Assembly: GCA_021798985.1 (NCBI GenBank) | Contig: JAJZBI010000002.1 | Coordinates: 62,001-126,000, forward strand | DNA length: 64,000 bases | Reading direction: 5' to 3' | From: Actinomycetes bacterium | GTDB lineage: Bacteria; Actinomycetota; Acidimicrobiia; Acidimicrobiales; Bog-793 | Shown: positions 52,525 through 59,475 of the stretch, piece after piece | Layout: every line of letters begins with the position of its first letter | Position numbering within the stretch: the stretch's first letter is position 1 | Notes under the pieces: generated by a model | What the model saw: only the letters and a program-made list of their open reading frames with translations | Told to the model about the DNA's origin: nothing | The model's database searches: none | Translations under genes and position numbers: made by a program

Positions 52525-53468
52525 AAGTAGATCGTCTTCGTCGCCCGCTCGGCGACCTCATCGAGGTCGCCGGTCCATGCCCTACTCGAGAGGTACTTCC
52601 AGCCGCCGTCCGGCGAGATGATCACGATCGTCCCGGACTCGATCTGGCGCGAGCAGCGCACCGCCCCGGCGAGCGCGGCGCCCGTCGAGATGCCGGCGAA
52701 CACGCCGAGGTCGGCGAGGCGGCGCGTCCAGGCGATCGAGTCCCGCGGACCGACGACGGTCTTGCGGTCGAGCAGCTTCTCCCCGCCGAGGTCGAGGAAG
52801 ATCGGGGGAACGTAGCCGTCGTCGAGGTTGCGTAAGCCGTCCACCATCTCCCCCGTCGGTGGTTCGACGGCCCAGACCTCGATGTCGCTGCGCTGGTCTT
52901 TCAGGTAGCGGCCAACGCCGAGCAGCGTCCCGCTCGTGCCCAGCCCGGCGACGAAGTGGGTGATCTCAGGACAGTCGCGATAGATCTCCGGCCCCGTCCC
53001 CTCATAGTGCGCTTTGGGGTTCGCCGGATTGCCGTACTGGTAGAGGAACACCCACTCGGGGTGCTCAGCCGCCAGCTGGCGCGCCAGGCGCACCGCGCCG
53101 TTGGAGCCCTCCGAGCCCGGCGATTCGATGATCTCGGCGCCGAAGACCTCGAGCAGCTGGCGCCGCTCGACCGAGACGTTGGCCGGCAGCACGACCTTGA
53201 GGTGGTAGCCCTTCAGGCGGCAGACGAGCGCCAGGCCGATCCCGGTGTTGCCCGAGGACGGCTCGAGCAGGACAGCACCGGGCTGCAGGAGCCCGCGCGC
53301 CTCGGCCTCTTCAACCAAGCTCAGCGCGACCCGGTCCTTCACCGAGCCGCCGGGGTTCATCCCCTCGAGCTTGACCAGGATCTTGGCGTCCGGGTTGGGG
53401 CTCAGCGCCGAGATGTCGACGAGCGGCGTGTTGCCGATGAGCGAGAGGACGCCGGGATGGACCGCCAT
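52521..53468 (-). CDS. cysM: CysM-type cysteine synthase (CysO-thiocarboxylate dependent)
   Basis: 315 aa fold-type II PLP enzyme. PLP lysine is Lys44 (GGSVKDR), and EPSSGNTGIGLAL, GTSGTLLGVGRYLK and ISTGAAL bind cofactor phosphate. The C-terminal extension (GWKYLSSRAWTGDLDEV) is the active-site lid of mycobacterial CysM, which uses O-phosphoserine and the thiocarboxylated carrier CysO. It lies 10 nt after cysO in a mec-cysO-cysM operon. It overlaps the convergent membrane protein gene by 4 nt. Confidence 0.92.
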   Translation of the reverse strand: MAVHPGVLSLIGNTPLVDISALSPNPDAKILVKLEGMNPGGSVKDRVALSLVEEAEARGLLQPGAVLLEPSSGNTGIGLALVCRLKGYHLKVVLPANVSVERRQLLEVFGAEIIESPGSEGSNGAVRLARQLAAEHPEWVFLYQYGNPANPKAHYEGTGPEIYRDCPEITHFVAGLGTSGTLLGVGRYLKDQRSDIEVWAVEPPTGEMVDGLRNLDDGYVPPIFLDLGGEKLLDRKTVVGPRDSIAWTRRLADLGVFAGISTGAALAGAVRCSRQIESGTIVIISPDGGWKYLSSRAWTGDLDEVAERATKTIYF

Positions 53469-53478
53469 GGTGGCCGGC

Positions 53479-53757
53479 TCACGCCCCGCCCGCGACCGCC
53501 GGCAGGATGCTGACGACCGAGCCGTCGAGCACCTTGGTGTCGAGGCCGTCGAGATAGCGGACGTCGTCGTCGTCGACGTAGACGTTGACGAAGCGGTGCA
53601 GCGTCCCGTCTTCGGTGAGCACCTGGCCGGACAGGCTCGGGTGCGCCCGTTCGAGGCCCTTCAGGACCTCGCCGACGGTGTCCCCCTCGACCACGACCCG
53701 GGAGCTCCCGTTGGCGGCGGCGCGCAGCAAGGTGGGCAAGCGGACTTCGACGGACAC
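53479..53757 (-). CDS. cysO: CysO-like ubiquitin-fold sulfur carrier protein
   Basis: 92 aa from GTG 53757 with GGAGGAG upstream. Beta-grasp (ThiS/MoaD) protein very close in outline to mycobacterial CysO: VRLPTLLRAA, HRFVNVYVDDDDVRYLDGLDT, VSILPAVAGG. The C-terminus is Gly-Gly-Ala, not a free Gly-Gly: one extra residue follows the diglycine needed for thiocarboxylate formation. Carries sulfur to CysM. Confidence 0.9.
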   Translation of the reverse strand: MSVEVRLPTLLRAAANGSSRVVVEGDTVGEVLKGLERAHPSLSGQVLTEDGTLHRFVNVYVDDDDVRYLDGLDTKVLDGSVVSILPAVAGGA

Positions 53758-53785
53758 GGCTCCTCCGAGGGCTGGAGCGAAATGT

Positions 53786-53807
53786 TGACTAACTCACTCA
53801 GATTCTA
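53786..53807 (-). promoter_or_regulatory. Candidate cysO promoter with sqr-like palindrome
   Basis: Minus strand: TAGAAT (53807-53802), one base, then TGAGTGAGTTAGTCA (53800-53786). The left half equals that of the sqr operator and the right half keeps 5 of 7 bases. It overlaps the end of mec. Confidence 0.4.
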
Positions 53808-54225
53808 ACCGAGGCGCCTCGAGGATCGGCTCCTCGCCGATCGTCCCGTCGACGATCCGGTAGGAGCGGACCGAGGCGAGCTCATGGCGCAGCGAGACCA
53901 GCACGTAGTGCCAGGTCGGGTCGGGCGCCTGGGCGACGTCGGTCGGCGAGGGGTAGGGGTCGGTGTGGGTGTGGGAGTGGAAGACCCCGATGACCGCTAG
54001 CCCCGCGTTCTCCGCCTCGCGGTCGGCCCGGAGGTGGGCACGGGGATCGACCGTGTAGAGCTTGGCCGACGCGGCGACGTTGGTCGTCGGGACACAGCGC
54101 GTGACCGCCGAGCCGTCGGGCGGGCCGACGAGCAGGCCGCAGCCTTCTTCGGGATAGCACCCGAGGCAGTGCGCGACCATCTCGTCGATCAGCGCGCTGG
54201 AGATCACGACACCCGGTCCATCCAT
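53794..54225 (-). CDS. mec: Mec-type JAMM metalloprotease
   Basis: 143 aa from ATG 54225; the frame extends upstream without protein character. JAMM residues: Glu27 (PEEGCG), His83 and His85, Ser93 and Asp96 (HSHTHTDPYPSPTD). In mycobacteria Mec releases cysteine from the CysO-cysteine adduct by cutting after Gly-Gly. Here it might also trim the extra C-terminal alanine of CysO. First gene of the operon; divergent from smpB, with start codons 28 bp apart. Confidence 0.9.
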   Translation of the reverse strand: MDGPGVVISSALIDEMVAHCLGCYPEEGCGLLVGPPDGSAVTRCVPTTNVAASAKLYTVDPRAHLRADREAENAGLAVIGVFHSHTHTDPYPSPTDVAQAPDPTWHYVLVSLRHELASVRSYRIVDGTIGEEPILEAPRLESE

Positions 54226-54239
54226 CGGAGTGGGCAGGC

Positions 54240-54245
54240 TACCGT
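54240..54245 (+). promoter_or_regulatory. -10 box TACCGT of smpB
   Basis: TACCGT ends 8 nt before ATG 54254. Minus-strand TAGCCT overlaps it, pointing to mec, so the two promoters are interlocked. Confidence 0.4.
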
Positions 54246-54253
54246 TTCCCCCC

Positions 54254-54763
54254 ATGCCCGCGAAGCAGCGACCCCGTGCGGGCAAGGACGCCAAGCGTCC
54301 CGAGGGCCCCCGCACGGTGGCCCGGAACCGCCGCGCCCGCCACGACTACGACATCCTCGAGACCTTCGAGTGCGGGATCGAGCTGCGCGGCGGCGAGGTG
54401 AAGTCGGTCCGCGCCGGCAAGGTGCAGCTGCATGACGCCTACGCCCGTGTCGACAACGGCGAGCTTTGGCTGCATGGCGCGCACATCGCGCCCTATGAGT
54501 ACTCGAGCGGCTTCGGCTGGGTCGACCCCGAACGACCGCGCAAGTTGCTGTTGCACCGCGCCGAGATCGACGAGCTCGCCGGGCGCGTGGCCCAGCAGTC
54601 GCTCACCTTGGTCCCCCTGTCGGTCTACTTCAAAGAAGGGCGCGCCAAGCTCGAGCTGGCGCTGGCACGCGGCCGGCGCCTGTACGACAAGCGCCACGCC
54701 ATCGCCGAGCGCGACGCGCGTCGGGAGGCCGAGCGCGTGATCAAGGAGTACAGCGGCCGCTGA
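54254..54763 (+). CDS. smpB: SsrA-binding protein
   Basis: 169 aa from ATG 54254. NRRARHDYDILETFECGIELRGGEVKSVRAGKVQLHDAYARV is the conserved OB-fold core, and KRHAIAERDARREAERVIKEY the C-terminal tail that enters the ribosome. The first ~20 residues are basic and variable. It binds tmRNA and delivers it to stalled ribosomes. The tmRNA gene lies 4.3 kb downstream. The stop codon is inside repeat R1. Confidence 0.95.
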   Translation: MPAKQRPRAGKDAKRPEGPRTVARNRRARHDYDILETFECGIELRGGEVKSVRAGKVQLHDAYARVDNGELWLHGAHIAPYEYSSGFGWVDPERPRKLLLHRAEIDELAGRVAQQSLTLVPLSVYFKEGRAKLELALARGRRLYDKRHAIAERDARREAERVIKEYSGR

Positions 54764-54799
54764 GTTCGCCAGCAAGGTGTGAATCTGGGTGGGAACGTC
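54751..54799 (+). repeat. Repeat R1, overlapping the end of smpB
   Basis: Begins CAGCGGCCGCTGAGTTCG and ends TCTGGGTGGGAACGTC. Inverted copies are at 55478-55513 (R2) and 57601-57645 (R4); a diverged direct copy is at 55520-55553 (R3). Confidence 0.8.
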
Positions 54800-54806
54800 T
54801 GCCGTC

Positions 54807-54825
54807 GTATCGCAAAATGTGATAC
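54807..54825. promoter_or_regulatory. Inverted repeat, probable antitoxin operator
   Basis: GTATCGCA aaa TGTGATAC: 7 of 8 positions pair. It overlaps the -10 box TACATT (54823-54828), which ends 7 nt before GTG 54836. Autorepression by the ribbon-helix-helix antitoxin is likely. Confidence 0.55.
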
Positions 54826-54835
54826 ATTGGCTGGC

Positions 54836-55075
54836 GTGGCACGTGCGATCTCCGTTCGACTGGACGACGAGGCTGACAAGGCCCTCAAGACGCTGGAGTC
54901 CACCGGCTTGACCCAGTCGGAGGTGATTCGCGTTGCCCTGGTTGGACAAGTCCGCTCCCGGCGCCGGAGCAAGGAGCTCGCGGCCGAAGTCGCCGCACTG
55001 GAGGCGGACGAGCACGACCGCGAAGAGATGCTGGCGATTGTGGAGTTGATGGAATCCCTCCGTGCTGCGCGGTGA
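54836..55075 (+). CDS. Ribbon-helix-helix antitoxin
   Basis: 79 aa from GTG 54836 (leaderless -10 upstream). ARAISVRLDDEADKALKTL and TGLTQSEVIRVAL are the RHH strand and helices; the acidic C-terminal helix (EEMLAIVELMESLRAA) should bind the toxin. It overlaps the toxin gene by 14 nt. First gene of the module between repeats R1 and R2. Confidence 0.8.
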   Translation: MARAISVRLDDEADKALKTLESTGLTQSEVIRVALVGQVRSRRRSKELAAEVAALEADEHDREEMLAIVELMESLRAAR

Positions 55076-55379
55076 CGTCTACCGCTTTCGCCTCCCGCGC
55101 GGCGTCGGTCACGAACACCACGGCGATCGCTATGGCGTCGTGGTGCAGGCCGATGAGTTCCTTCCGCGATCGGTGGTGATCGTCGCCCCGACCTCGCGCA
55201 GCGCCCGCGCCGCCTCTTTCCGACCAGAAGCCGAGATTGCCGGCGCGACCACCCGGGTGCTCGTCGAACAGATCGGCGCGGTTGACGCGCGCCGCCTGGG
55301 TGAGCTTGCCGGACACCTTTCTCGTGAAGAGATGTGGGGAATCGACGAGGCGCTCGTCGCGGTCCTCGACTTGCGCTGA
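55062..55379 (+). CDS. MazF/PemK-type endoribonuclease toxin
   Basis: 105 aa from GTG 55062. LRGDVYRFRLPRGVGHEHHGDRYGVVVQAD is the MazF opening, with His/Arg in the loop before the catalytic face; VVIVAPTSRSAR is the third strand and loop, and VLVEQIGAVDARRL the terminal part. Diverged from the MazF9-like toxin at 37740, so a separate acquisition. Confidence 0.8.
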   Translation: MLRGDVYRFRLPRGVGHEHHGDRYGVVVQADEFLPRSVVIVAPTSRSARAASFRPEAEIAGATTRVLVEQIGAVDARRLGELAGHLSREEMWGIDEALVAVLDLR

Positions 55380-55477
55380 AGGGGGGCCATCCCGACAAGC
55401 GCGGTTTCCCACCGGCGGGGCCGCTGTCTCCGCAACATCGGGTGCCGCTTCAGTTCGAGTCAGCTGGGTGGTGGATT

Positions 55478-55513
55478 TTCCCACCCAGATCACACCTTGC
55501 TGGCGAACTCAGC
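55478..55513 (-). repeat. Repeat R2, inverted copy of R1
   Basis: The reverse complement matches R1 positions 54759-54795 at 36 of 37 positions with a single missing A. It lies downstream of the toxin gene. Confidence 0.8.
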
Positions 55514-55519
55514 CTGCCA

Positions 55520-55553
55520 TGAGTTCGCCAGCGAGCGCTGACTCTGGTGGGAA
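55520..55553 (+). repeat. Repeat R3, diverged direct copy
   Basis: Starts TGAGTTCGCCAGC as in R1 and ends TGGGAA, with several changes in the middle. It faces R2 across 6 bp. Confidence 0.65.
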
Positions 55554-55626
55554 ATCGCGGAACTTGGCCGGAGCCACGCATTCCTCGGCAGCAGGCTGTG
55601 GAATATGGAACGTCCGTTGCCCCACC

Positions 55627-56904
55627 TCAGCCCAACCGATTCGCACACGCCGCCGCGTTCGCCGCGACCGCATTGACGAGGATGTCGGCGAAGTCTCCGG
55701 AGCTTCCTTCCAGGACGAGGCGCTCTCGTGCGGCAGCGAAGGCCTCCGGCACCGCCTGTGCCAGCTGTCGCGCCCGGGCGAGCGCCCCATCGGCGGGCAG
55801 TCCGAGCACCTTCGCCTCCCTCACCCAGGTGGAGGCTCCGATCGAGCCCACCCGATAGTGGCCGCCCACGGTCATCCCCAGCTTGACCTTGGGCCCGTGG
55901 AAGTCTGGGTACGGCAAGGCTGACGCGAGGTCGTAGAGCGGCGCGAGGCGCACGGCCCTGCCGAGGTGAAGCAGGGAGTAGTTCTTCGCGTGCGCATCGG
56001 GAGCGGCGATCAGCCAGTTGAACACGAGCGCCTCGAAGAACCGCCACAGGGCCCCGCGCCCTTCGACCCCGGAGATCTGCGACCGCAAGAGCGCAGCGAT
56101 TTGCGCCGCCGAGGGGCCTCTGTCGCTCTGGTACTTGTTCGCCGGGCTCACCGCCAGCGCCTGGCAGAGATCCTCCTGGTGCACTCGTTCGACCGTCCCG
56201 TCTGGGCTGGAGAACCGATCGAACCTGGTGACCACCACGGCCCGTTCAGAGCCGAAGGTTGCGATCGTGCTCGGCGCAGCGAGCAGGCCACAGCGCGTTG
56301 CGGCAGCAAGGCAGAGATGCTCGTTGATTTCGTGGTCGGCAAAGCCCGCGATTGCCGGCTTCAGGATCCGGTTCGTCGCTAGCGCGCCGTTGGCGCGGCC
56401 CCAGCGGCCCTCGTGAAAGACGAGCGCGACCTTGGGATGGACTCCGGCGAGCGACCAGCGTCCCCTGCCATTGGGCGGGAGCCATGCTGCCTCGTCCTCA
56501 CGCACTCGCCGGAGCTCGGCAGCGACCTCGTCGTCGCCAAGCCACTCGACCTCTCCCGACGCGTCCGCCAGATCCTCGCCGACGGTGAGGATCTGGATCG
56601 CTCCGGGAAGGTCCCGGCCGACCTGGGCCAGCAGGTCGAGGGGCCGCGTCGCCGAGACGCGGAACTGACGTGCCCAACGCTGCAGCACGAGCTCGTTGTC
56701 CGGAAGAAGGCCCCACAGATAGGGCCTGATGCGGTCGTCGGGGTGCACGGCTGCAGTCATCGGCAGGGCGCACGAGAGCGGGGTTGCTCCTGGATCGCTG
56801 CGGTAGCTGTCGTCGTAGACAAAGCTCAGCCGGTCGCGCTGGCCACGTTCCAGGGACCCGGCCAGCCGGCCCGCAATGTAGACGTCGAGTCGGTCAGTTG
56901 CCAT
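55627..56904 (-). CDS. hipA: HipA-type serine/threonine kinase toxin
   Basis: 425 aa from ATG 56904, overlapping the antitoxin gene by 11 nt. The N-terminal HipA_N domain opens with VYIAGRLAGSLER. The kinase core has SLAGVHPK (151-158, with the ATP lysine), HQEDLCQAL (242-250), catalytic DAHAKN (303-308) and metal-binding DLAS (325-328). HipA phosphorylates glutamyl-tRNA synthetase in E. coli and causes persistence; the target here is not known. The set of catalytic motifs is complete, so it should be active. Confidence 0.9.
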   Translation of the reverse strand: MATDRLDVYIAGRLAGSLERGQRDRLSFVYDDSYRSDPGATPLSCALPMTAAVHPDDRIRPYLWGLLPDNELVLQRWARQFRVSATRPLDLLAQVGRDLPGAIQILTVGEDLADASGEVEWLGDDEVAAELRRVREDEAAWLPPNGRGRWSLAGVHPKVALVFHEGRWGRANGALATNRILKPAIAGFADHEINEHLCLAAATRCGLLAAPSTIATFGSERAVVVTRFDRFSSPDGTVERVHQEDLCQALAVSPANKYQSDRGPSAAQIAALLRSQISGVEGRGALWRFFEALVFNWLIAAPDAHAKNYSLLHLGRAVRLAPLYDLASALPYPDFHGPKVKLGMTVGGHYRVGSIGASTWVREAKVLGLPADGALARARQLAQAVPEAFAAARERLVLEGSSGDFADILVNAVAANAAACANRLG

Positions 56905-57160
56905 CGGCGAACTGCTCGAGATACGCGTCGAGCCGAGCTCCTGCGGCGTCATCTGTGGCCCGTACCTCCAGGGTGACCCCGAGCGTGGCAAGAACAACAA
57001 GCACCATCCCGGTCTGAACGGACGGCTTGCCCGCCTCGAGGTCAACAACCCAACGCACCGAGGTTCCGCACTCAGCAGCGAGGTGGTGCTGCGTCCAGCC
57101 CAAGGCGCGCCGCCGATCCCGAACCAAGGCAGCCAGGTCGGCGGGAGTCTTCAGTTGCAT
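56894..57160 (-). CDS. hipB: HipB-type XRE antitoxin
   Basis: 88 aa; ATG 57160 has GAGGAGG upstream. Helix-turn-helix LAALVRDRRRALGWTQHHLAAECGTSVRWVVDLEAGKPSV covers about residues 9-47. The tail LDAYLEQFADGN overlaps the hipA start. It neutralises HipA and represses the operon. Two ACGATCGT palindromes lie upstream at 57235 and 57262. Confidence 0.88.
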   Translation of the reverse strand: MQLKTPADLAALVRDRRRALGWTQHHLAAECGTSVRWVVDLEAGKPSVQTGMVLVVLATLGVTLEVRATDDAAGARLDAYLEQFADGN

Positions 57161-57498
57161 GCTCACCTCCTCAGAAGTGCTCGATCGGTCAGAAGGGACA
57201 ATAGTGCGCGCTCCTGCCGAACCGACATTCACGCACGATCGTTCCGATTTCGGCTGTCTGCACGATCGTGTCGATTGGACCAACGCCGTTGCGCAGCCGG
57301 CTGTCAGCCCAATGCGACGTGCACCCGCCGTCCCGGTCGCACCAGCCTGGGGCGCTGACCGGAACGGCGCATCGCCCTCCCGCTCGGCGGGTAGCCGTGC
57401 GCCATGTGGCGGCGCCAGCTCGGGCCTTTGACGCCGCGGCGGGCACGACTCATCCGCATCGTCCCTGTCGCTGGCCTGGCGGTGTCCGCGTTCAGGCC

Positions 57499-57540
57499 CT
57501 CACGGCAGCGCTGCAAGATCTCACGGCAGCGCTGCAAGAG
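57499..57540 (+). repeat. 21-bp tandem duplication
   Basis: CTCACGGCAGCGCTGCAAGA occurs at 57499 and again at 57520, with 20 of 21 positions identical. Each unit contains the palindrome GCAGCGCTGC. Confidence 0.7.
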
Positions 57541-57600
57541 AAGTGGCGCTCCTTGCCGACGATGGCACCTGACCCAGCGCAGCCGGAAGGGCAGGTCGAT

Positions 57601-57645
57601 GTTCCCACCCAGATCACACCTCGCTGCCGAACTCAGCGGCCGCTG
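57601..57645 (-). repeat. Repeat R4, inverted copy of R1
   Basis: The reverse complement matches R1 (54751-54796) over 46 positions with two substitutions and one missing A, including CAGCGGCCGCTGAG, which in R1 holds the end of smpB. Confidence 0.8.
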
Positions 57646-57657
57646 ACCTCTGGCCGG

Positions 57658-59055
57658 TTAGAGCACGAGCGCCGGAACGATCGCCAGGCCGAAGGCCATC
57701 ACGGCGACGCAGCAGCAGGTGGCCAGGAGGCGACGGGCGCCGCGCATGCGATGGGCCGCAGGCAGCGCCCGCGCCTCGAGGGCGAGGAGGAAGCCGAGCA
57801 CCACCGGCAGCAAGACCGCATTCATCACCTCGACCCCAACGGCGAGCTGGACGAGGTTGGTGCAGCTGAGCACGACCAGCGCCCCGAACAGATGGGCGGC
57901 GACGTAGGTCGCGTAGAATGCTGCGCTCGCCCGATCGGGGCGGGAGTTCAGGCTGTGCCGCCACCCGAGCGCCTCCGCCAGCCCCCACGACCCCGCCAAG
58001 CTGACGACGACCGCCGCCACCATCGCGGCCCCGATGACCGCGGCCCCGACGACAAAGCGCGAACCGGCGCCGAGCTCGGGGCGAAGGGCGGCCGCCAGCT
58101 GAGTGACGCCGGACAGGTTCGGCCCGCCTCCTCGATGCCACAGGCTCGTCGCGGCGAGCAGGACGACGGTCACCATCACCACCTGGGTCACGACGGTGCC
58201 GAGCGCGGTGTCCAGGCGCTGGGCGCGAAGCGAGCGGACCCTGAGGCCCCGCTGGATCACCGCCCCCTGCTGGTAGAAGATCATCCACGGCATGATGACC
58301 GCGCCCACGTTCGCTGCGAGCAGGTAGAGGTAGGAGCGCTGGCTGAGCGGCGCGACGCGAAGGTCGGCGGCGATGGTGCCGAGATGGGGGTGGGCGAACA
58401 CCAATGCCGGTACGAAGAGCAACTCGCCGAGGCCGAAGGCCAGTGCCACCCGCTCGATGCGCCGGTATCTCCCACTGAAGGCCAGGCTGATGAGCACCGC
58501 GGCCGCGACCGGTACGCTCACACGACGGGGCACGCCAAAGAGCGCGGCCGCGGCGGCAACGCCGACGAACTCGGTGAGCAGCGCGCCCACTGCTGAGGAC
58601 AACAGCGTGATCGAGGAGCACACCGCCCAGCGCGCGCCGAAGTGCTCGCGGATCAGCTCGCCGTGCCCTCGGCCGGTCACGAGGCCGAGGCGCACGGTCA
58701 TCTCCTGGACGAGATACAACACGGGGATGAGCGCGAGCTCGGGCAGGACGAGCGCGTACCCCCAGCGCGACCCAGACTGCGCCGCGGTGAGGAGGGATCC
58801 CGCGTCGGTGTCCGCGAGCATCACGACGAGCCCGGGGCCGAAGGCCGCGAGCATGCCTACCAGCGCGACTCGACGGCGCCGCCAGCTACCGGACTCGGGC
58901 GCGACGAGCGCCACCTGCTCGCTCGGCGCCGCACCCCTGGATCGCACGGCCGCATTCAGCCAGCTCGCCGCGTCCGACGACAAGGACCGGAGGGCCCTGC
59001 GGGCCAGCCGGAGGTCCCGAGCCCCGCTGGCGCCAGGTGCGCCCGGCGCTACCAT
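57658..59055 (-). CDS. Nramp-superfamily divalent metal transporter, non-canonical
   Basis: 465 aa from ATG 59055; the start is uncertain since about 60 hydrophilic residues precede helix 1 and no ribosome binding site is clear. Eleven helices in the LeuT-type order. Helix 1 reads ADTDAGSLLTAAQSGSRWGY where classical MntH has DPGN, and helix 6 MPWMIFYQQG where it has MPH. The metal-binding set is therefore altered, as in Nramp-related outgroups; Mg2+ or another cation is possible. Its upstream part overlaps the ssrA promoter region on the other strand. Confidence 0.8.
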   Translation of the reverse strand: MVAPGAPGASGARDLRLARRALRSLSSDAASWLNAAVRSRGAAPSEQVALVAPESGSWRRRRVALVGMLAAFGPGLVVMLADTDAGSLLTAAQSGSRWGYALVLPELALIPVLYLVQEMTVRLGLVTGRGHGELIREHFGARWAVCSSITLLSSAVGALLTEFVGVAAAAALFGVPRRVSVPVAAAVLISLAFSGRYRRIERVALAFGLGELLFVPALVFAHPHLGTIAADLRVAPLSQRSYLYLLAANVGAVIMPWMIFYQQGAVIQRGLRVRSLRAQRLDTALGTVVTQVVMVTVVLLAATSLWHRGGGPNLSGVTQLAAALRPELGAGSRFVVGAAVIGAAMVAAVVVSLAGSWGLAEALGWRHSLNSRPDRASAAFYATYVAAHLFGALVVLSCTNLVQLAVGVEVMNAVLLPVVLGFLLALEARALPAAHRMRGARRLLATCCCVAVMAFGLAIVPALVL

Positions 59056-59087
59056 GGAAGCGCGGCAAGGTGCCGCGAGGAACACCA

Positions 59088-59437
59088 GGGGGTGATTGGC
59101 TTCGACTTCGGTCGTCAAGGTGGGAGAAGCGAGCCGTGGTCTCCGGAGCCACGCTAAAGAGCCGGAACCAAAAACAAACGCCGAGCCTCAGCTCGCGCTC
59201 GCTGCCTGATTAGGTAGCGATGTCTGCCCGGTCCCAGCCCCGCGGATCGGATCGCAGGCATCATCTTGTGGGGCTTACTCCTGTGGCTTGTCAGCGTCTG
59301 CTGGAGGAAATCTCAGCTGACTGGGGTCCCGTGCCGGTGCCGGTGGCGAGGCGGGACCCGAGATCTCACCGCCGGCTGCGCTCGGAGAAGGCCTACTGCG
59401 AAGCTGAAGGACGCGGGTTCGATTCCCGCCACCTCCA
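59088..59437 (+). ncRNA. ssrA: Transfer-messenger RNA (tmRNA)
   Basis: 350 nt, one piece. The 5' end GGGGGTG pairs with CACCTCC (59430-59436) as the acceptor stem, with discriminator A 59437; TGATTGGCTTCGAC is the conserved 5' segment and GCGGGTTCGATTCCCGC the T arm. The tag reading frame is 59180-59209: A-E-P-Q-L-A-L-A-A then TGA, ending in the proteolysis signal ALAA. The genomic 3' end reads CGA, so CCA must be added after transcription. It rescues stalled ribosomes with SmpB. Confidence 0.93.
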
Positions 59438-59475
59438 CGAAGTGGTAGTTACATAACTACTGCAATCTGTTCACA

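Follow-up and report, generated by a model that had tools for sequence, protein, structure and literature searches.

Two stacked elements behind smpB

The window analyzed here, a stretch of 64,000 nucleotides (G000:C33:62001-126000) from the 3.76-Mb draft genome G000 (71 contigs), contains two toxin-antitoxin (TA) modules directly behind the host gene smpB. The region 54761-57635 very probably represents two stacked non-autonomous transposons whose insertion at the stop codon of smpB duplicated 8 bp of target sequence. The two elements, E1 (54761-55511; MazF and antitoxin) and E2 (55520-57635; HipBA), are each bounded by terminal inverted repeats of about 40 bp, with outer tips at 54761 (R1, +), 55511 (R2, -), 55520 (R3, +) and 57635 (R4, -); the flanks of the outer pair R1-R4 are identical at 8/8 positions, with GCGGCCGC before R1 and GCGGCCGC after R4. 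An initial annotation of this DNA had suggested, as one possibility, an element resembling a miniature inverted-repeat transposable element (MITE) that mobilizes the modules, and this is now supported by the inverted termini, the 8-bp duplications, the unoccupied site of a same-genus genome, related elements elsewhere and an autonomous partner. The features of the locus are as follows.

54254-54763, + strand: smpB, host gene (PF01668), with the insertion at its stop codon
54753-54760, no strand: left copy of the putative 8-bp target duplication GCGGCCGC; a single copy is present in the empty site of genome G002
54761-54799, + strand: R1, left end of E1 (39-nt end model); its first TGA serves as stop codon of smpB
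54836-55075, + strand: putative ribbon-helix-helix (RHH)-type antitoxin, 79 aa, placed before MazF; start codon chosen by us
55062-55379, + strand: MazF/PemK toxin, 105 aa (PF02452, E 1e-16)
55474-55511, - strand: R2, right end of E1 (end model, 40.8 bits)
55512-55519, no strand: 8-bp spacer GCCTGCCA separating E1 and E2
55520-55556, + strand: R3, left end of E2 (end model, 25 bits), the most divergent of R1-R4
55627-56904, - strand: HipA-family toxin kinase (PF07804 and PF13657)
56894-57160, - strand: HipB-like helix-turn-helix (HTH) antitoxin, 88 aa (PF13560; TIGR03070 at 70.7 bits, cut-off 71.65)
57598-57635, - strand: R4, right end of E2 (end model, 40.3 bits)
57636-57643, no strand: right copy of the putative 8-bp target duplication GCGGCCGC

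All four repeats around the two modules, as described in the initial annotation, were recovered both with a 22-nt core and with a 39-nt end model built from 29 ends; the core, searched with at most three mismatches, gave four matches in the window versus 0.01 expected (100 shuffles). Several details were revised. R1 is a repeat as described, but not from 54751, as ten bases there fall outside the element; the gap between R2 and R3, given as 6 bp, is a tip distance of 8 bp (GCCTGCCA); and R1 and R2 differ by the one substitution noted, but also by a one-base gap that had been overlooked. The outer repeats had been thought to include the last smpB codons; the most fitting reading of CAGCGGCCGCTGA, common to both, is a duplicated 8-bp target, GCGGCCGC, rather than repeat.

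Both TA pairs are uninterrupted frames. The antitoxin ahead of MazF is named mostly by position, because it had no Pfam match and its NCBIfam match to RelB/DinJ (E 0.0017) was weak and far under the cut-off. In line with the initial remark that no transposase gene lies inside, tblastn with the transposase/exonuclease family described below (E up to 1e-4) returned nothing in loci covering 53261-59135; Pfam identified only SmpB, PemK/MazF, HipA and HTH in this region, with not all small frames scanned for other transposases.

The smpB 3' region was compared, as the initial annotation had proposed, with that of a relative lacking the modules. G002, a genome of the same genus with an SmpB 97% identical to that of the window, contains smpB with a single GCGGCCGC behind it and without TA genes, whereupon the flank on the side of the Nramp gene resumes; this is an unoccupied insertion site. 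Because R1 opens with an in-frame TGA, SmpB has the same C-terminal residue in the window and in G002.

Target duplications and target preference

For 29 facing end pairs, which were placed by the end model without use of the flanks and in which the window was entered as the outer pair R1-R4, the flanking 8-mers were identical in 15 pairs and matched at 7/8 or more positions in 21, compared with 0.4% and 1.1%, respectively, for shuffled partners. Identity extending beyond 8 bp (9 to 12 bp) or confined to 5 bp was found in none of the 29. When E1 and E2 were counted apart, each with 3/8, the corresponding counts were 14/30 and 20/30. The host-side flanks have the consensus CTCA-N8-TGAG. Terminator and attC-like readings of the repeats, also raised initially, were set aside, without RNA folding, in view of the facing ends with their target duplications; simple terminators would not be expected to occur as facing pairs with matching 8-bp flanks.

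Distribution of the ends

An exact pattern scan with GAGTTCGSCAGCNNGGTGTGA of the contigs of 84,980 species returned 18 stretches, all from Actinomycetota as judged by their record titles. The end model matched all of 14 genomes that had been pre-chosen because they, or a locus in them, held an end; 15/96 genomes in the family around G150, a Geodermatophilus; and, under stricter filters, 1/396 genomes of a phylum sample, namely that of the window. The elements are therefore sporadic across the family and phylum samples. The genome of the window has nine end matches on three contigs (C33, C62 and C9). A pattern scan of relatives with at most three mismatches gave matches in 16/147 genomes, including that of the window, and the reversed control pattern gave matches in five; follow-up of these covered G002 and G131 (C294, C325/L021), the remaining matches having two or three mismatches.

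The search of the genome and its relatives for the repeat core, with a listing of what lies between facing copies, had been another proposed check, and the ends were found to recur around varied cargo. The notion of cassettes that draw TA modules to the 3' end of smpB is not supported, since the other insertions inspected lie elsewhere and most of the recognized cargo is not TA; an smpB-specific system was dropped on the same evidence of further copies at other loci. In blastn comparisons of E1 or E2 with the other fetched loci, the shared sequence consisted of terminal stretches of 29-48 bases only.

Not every end is paired. Single ends without a partner among the 18 stretches were those of L057 (dropped from the model), L058, L060, L063 and L065; no inverted partner was found for the end in C325/L021 (G131), and no convincing partner for ends in L151, L152, L153, L154, L156, L103, L104, L106, L108, L113 and L114. 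One viral contig (L158) matched the end pattern. A plasmid scan with a 35-nt end gave six records, none spanning 80% of the query; 18-nt matches on Microvirga plasmids were judged chance, and lie inside a 1.1-1.5 kb repeat common to three plasmids of one strain. In L058, from a Frankiales draft genome, smpB (275-751) lies about 5 kb from the one end (5747), which is probably a coincidence.

Cargo

The elements without transposase are 149 bp to 3.0 kb long. Pfam-named cargo comprises MazF, HipA with HTH, Fic in two elements (G000 and G002), Schlafen AlbA_2, DUF6841, NmrA with cupin, an FAD-binding oxidoreductase with MarR, TetR with SnoaL, MDMPI in two elements, and TPR. The element of L061, with an uncertain right boundary, carries PIN and Phd/YefM (Pfam); L055 has an SMI1/KNR4 match under its cut-off, and a sensor-kinase/response-regulator pair was read by eye from the translation of L068. 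Recognized TA pairs are thus present in three elements, and TA genes are one kind of cargo among several. The scanned proteins of L146, L147, L148 and L155 were assigned to no family, and in the elements of about 280 bp no gene was picked by the frame-picking script. PADLOC assigned the Fic protein as SoFic-like, and otherwise gave weak or partial matches only.

Related MDMPI-domain genes are located in elements at different loci of different Geodermatophilaceae genomes (L145 and L070). SnoaL and TetR genes that appear closely similar by eye are present in L069 (204-1747) and L068 (below 923), from a Blastococcus and a Streptosporangiaceae draft genome, a likeness that hints at transfer between families.

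Arrays

Among 13 '+' ends that were chosen for a possible neighbor, nine have an inverted end (at least 13/22 of the consensus) exactly 8 bp upstream: those in the window, L068, L102, L103, L107 (at 3170, 4223 and 7224), L108 and L113; none was found at this distance in L066 (tip lost), L104, L111 and L112. At random positions in the same loci, matches of at least 12/22 occurred at 0.3%. In L107 the 8-mer GCCGGTGC is identical at three successive junctions, and in L068 CCCGCGTC stands on both sides of one element; such repeated 8-mers are expected if a new copy lands in the target that an older copy has duplicated, because CTCA-N8-TGAG is restored by the end. The window spacer GCCTGCCA agrees with GCGGCCGC, the outer duplication, at only 3/8 positions.

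A second two-element array is present in the genome of the window (L102 3832-6450; G000:C62) and encodes Fic and Schlafen AlbA_2 proteins. The Fic element and the start of its neighbor are 87% identical over 1.5 kb between G000 (C62) and G002 (C29), and the flank past the Fic side differs between the two. The flank of the C62 array in G002 was considered as a further empty site and dropped, as the G002 contig stops inside an element.

Autonomous elements and their candidate transposase

In G202, two ends on separate contigs have the 8-mer GCCCGCGG in common, and a gene for a 670-aa protein (P0001) lies just inside one of them; the two ends may belong to one split element. Complete autonomous elements, 4.2-4.6 kb long, carry related ends and are flanked by 8-bp duplications. 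That of G224 (L174 4830-9206, 4377 bp), with ends set by the model, has termini of 22/22, GCCCGGGA on both sides, and ends that agree with the consensus at 18 of its first 19 bases. Those of G199 (L175 3096-7678, 4583 bp; termini 22/22, GGTTCTTC twice) and G091 (L203 4670-8845, 4176 bp; termini 21/22, GCCGCAGC twice) were located by a search in which the flanks formed part of the criterion. A second end-like sequence is located just within the right end of the G091 element (L203 8652-8687). No convincing termini were found around the transposase gene in G186, G183, G584 and G480.

Relatives of P0001, some of them fragments, were found in 5/112 genomes of the family of G202 (G202 included), and in 5/396 genomes of the phylum sample and 5/147 relatives, the genome of the window being in both; none was found among the viral contigs, plasmids or phages searched. 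Pfam gave no match for P0001 even at E up to 1, and nothing in NCBIfam came near a cut-off. Of its relatives, those in G224 and G186 also have no Pfam match at E up to 1, and that in G199 has RHH_4 at 0.21 only; PHROGs gave nothing useful for the transposase.

A DEDDh exonuclease gene, which matches phrog_192, adjoins the transposase gene in eight of 12 fetched loci with a relative, as identified by Pfam RNase_T (G224, G199, G186), by tblastn (G584, G480, G091) or from translations by eye (G183, G202). It was not found in G579 (3.4-kb contig), G016, G169 or beside the decayed copy in G000. Exonuclease fragments are present inside the L155 element and in L066, as would be seen if the autonomous element had given rise to some of the cassettes.

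A structure model from five sequences (predicted local distance difference test, pLDDT, 72.0; predicted template modeling score, pTM, 0.63) has a predicted RNase H-like strand order with a helical stretch ahead of the last conserved helix. D268, D354, H380 and E482 are invariant in the five sequences, and their positions, together with excerpts from the description of ISCth4 (PMC7780238), suggest that they represent the DDE residues and a (C/S)xxH motif. When the candidates proposed by Foldseek were themselves re-aligned and ranked by Z, ISCth4 came first (Z 15.9, root mean square deviation 4.6 over 272 residues) and Hermes next (Z 13.4, 5.1 over 256 residues), followed by retroviral integrases. 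The fold of the P0001-family protein is thus predicted to resemble those of IS256 and hAT transposases; an RNase H-like core with helical insertion, as predicted in the model, occurs in IS256, hAT and others alike. A sequence-profile search of solved structures with the transposase gave nothing relevant. A kinship to ISL3 was considered and is unsupported, as there was no PF01610 or other Pfam match, and profile comparison with two ISL3 proteins gave a probability of 1.6% (E 0.03).

Proposed mechanism and alternative explanations

The P0001-family protein would cut at the TGAG tips and join with an 8-bp stagger, acting in trans on the DNA between two such ends and favoring CTCA-N8-TGAG targets; the cassettes without transposase would move in this way. 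The tip TGAG of an inserted element, standing beside the duplicated N8, would rebuild the CTCA-N8-TGAG target, so that a later copy could land exactly 8 bp off and arrays could form. E1 and E2 were probably joined elsewhere, because their spacer GCCTGCCA differs from the outer duplication, and probably then moved as a unit via the outermost ends R1 and R4. The exonuclease may take some part in movement, and the copy in the window is probably immobile now unless transposase is supplied. On a wider scale, the evidence seems to us evenly balanced as to whether these elements constitute a transposon superfamily of Actinomycetota not yet described, in which an IS256/hAT-like DDE transposase works with a DEDDh exonuclease and an integron-like cassette economy prevails: any gene between two 40-bp ends is mobile, insertions rebuild CTCA-N8-TGAG, and 8-bp-spaced arrays move as units.

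Several observations weigh against the main interpretation, that of two stacked non-autonomous transposons moved by a P0001-family protein. The outer duplication GCGGCCGC is palindromic (its own reverse complement), and therefore the window site alone cannot tell a duplication from a longer inverted repeat; other loci can. Between GCGGCCGC and the flank on the Nramp side, G002 carries about 300 bp that the window lacks, so the right side of the empty site is not a base-for-base match. Eight of the 29 end pairs match at fewer than 7/8 positions, namely L101 (own genome, C9), both L102 elements (own genome, C62), L110, L112, L067, L069 and one pairing in L118. The end model rests on ends found via one exact pattern, and the family is defined by that choice. 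The genome of the window has no intact transposase and contains only a decayed fragment with in-frame stops; 21 of the 25 end-holding genomes searched with P0001, many of them drafts, gave no match. Foldseek alone returned no match below E 0.001 (best E 0.35).

The 21 genomes without a P0001 match, as well as the four without convincing termini around the gene, would also fit a mover other than the P0001-family protein, with the ends being real; for example, L149 has an IS5-type transposase gene next to one end. This IS5-type transposase was rejected, as no left end was found for it, and another mover in general appears quite unlikely to us, given that the gene in G224 lies between ends close to the consensus and with an exact 8-bp duplication, that transposase or exonuclease fragments are present in the genome of the window, in L066 and in the L155 element, and that the predicted fold of P0001 is that of DDE transposases. 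It is somewhat more plausible, and still unlikely, that E1 and E2 were inserted stepwise at smpB and that the spacer was altered later by mutation, inter-copy recombination or cassette exchange. Stepwise stacking does occur, as successive insertions at one target in L107 keep the same 8-mer at each junction, and the make-up of the Fic-element array differs between G000 and G002; however, the spacer in the window matches the outer duplication at only 3/8 positions while the outer copies are still identical.

Highly improbable are site-specific cassettes, in which the inverted arms and the 8-bp spacer would be the core of a tyrosine recombinase (lox-like or Acinetobacter pdif-like) and movement would be by conservative recombination. 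The R2-8 bp-R3 junction resembles arm-spacer-arm, and arrays of such junctions occur; excerpts from PMC13141974 likewise describe inversely oriented pdif repeats around small modules, often TA, in arrays, TA genes being common in dif modules. The same excerpts, however, give pdif as a 6-bp-spacer site with XerC/XerD arms, the exchange of which requires identical or nearly identical spacers, whereas the 8-mers here are equal across one element and vary from insertion to insertion, an observation that speaks against a common core for recombination. Furthermore, the autonomous elements encode a DDE-like protein, and Pfam named no recombinase in their two genes.

Relation to known systems

The predicted RNase H-like core with helical insertion has its best structural matches in IS256 (ISCth4) and hAT (Hermes). 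The autonomous elements have 8-bp duplications, which together with a hAT-like catalytic fold would be expected of the hAT superfamily, and no sequence-level match to hAT was obtained; the candidate transposase differs from both by the lack of a Pfam transposase match (E up to 1), a zinc-ribbon-looking N-terminal part and the adjoining exonuclease gene. In plants, Ac/Ds and Pack-type elements comprise an autonomous element and a larger non-autonomous group, some members bearing unrelated sequence; the family in the window is bacterial and has whole genes or operons between its ends.

Mobile insertion cassettes (MICs) and bacterial MITEs, in the excerpts considered of PMC3129680 and PMC4133298, have inverted ends and no transposase gene, with or without passenger genes, and are thought to be moved by a cognate transposase. 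The present elements are alike in their ends and cargo, and differ from what is described there by another end family and enzyme, stacking at exactly 8 bp, the exonuclease neighbor and the lack of a family model. Tn3-derived inverted-repeat miniature elements (TIMEs), as excerpted from PMC4133298, are non-autonomous, gene-carrying, and have 38-bp ends and mostly 5-bp duplications, and TA genes travel as cargo of Tn3 transposons (excerpts from PMC7157771). TIMEs and their composite form (TIME-COMP) thus resemble the window elements as non-autonomous elements bearing genes, with TA genes as transposon cargo, whereas the window elements, compared with these excerpts, have an 8-bp duplication, unrelated ends and TA pairs as sole genes.

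Searches of open-license papers found no description of the family. It would work like MICs/MITEs and TA-carrying transposons, from which it differs in its ends, in the length of the duplication and in having an enzyme that no family model covers; annotation probably overlooks such elements, because the libraries scanned contain no family model for the candidate transposase. The repeat flanking the two TA modules thereby becomes a mobile system that can be tested and has a candidate enzyme, and a possible route for the spread of chromosomal TA and other small modules among environmental actinobacteria that would not require an integron. The stacking rule would provide a simple way to cassette arrays without a site-specific recombinase.

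Neighboring genes

Downstream of E2 (57658-59438), a minus-strand Nramp gene is located between smpB and the transfer-messenger RNA (tmRNA) gene (59088-59438). The longest Nramp frame overlaps the start of the tmRNA gene; in G003, with no Nramp gene in between, a tmRNA-like stretch lies near smpB.

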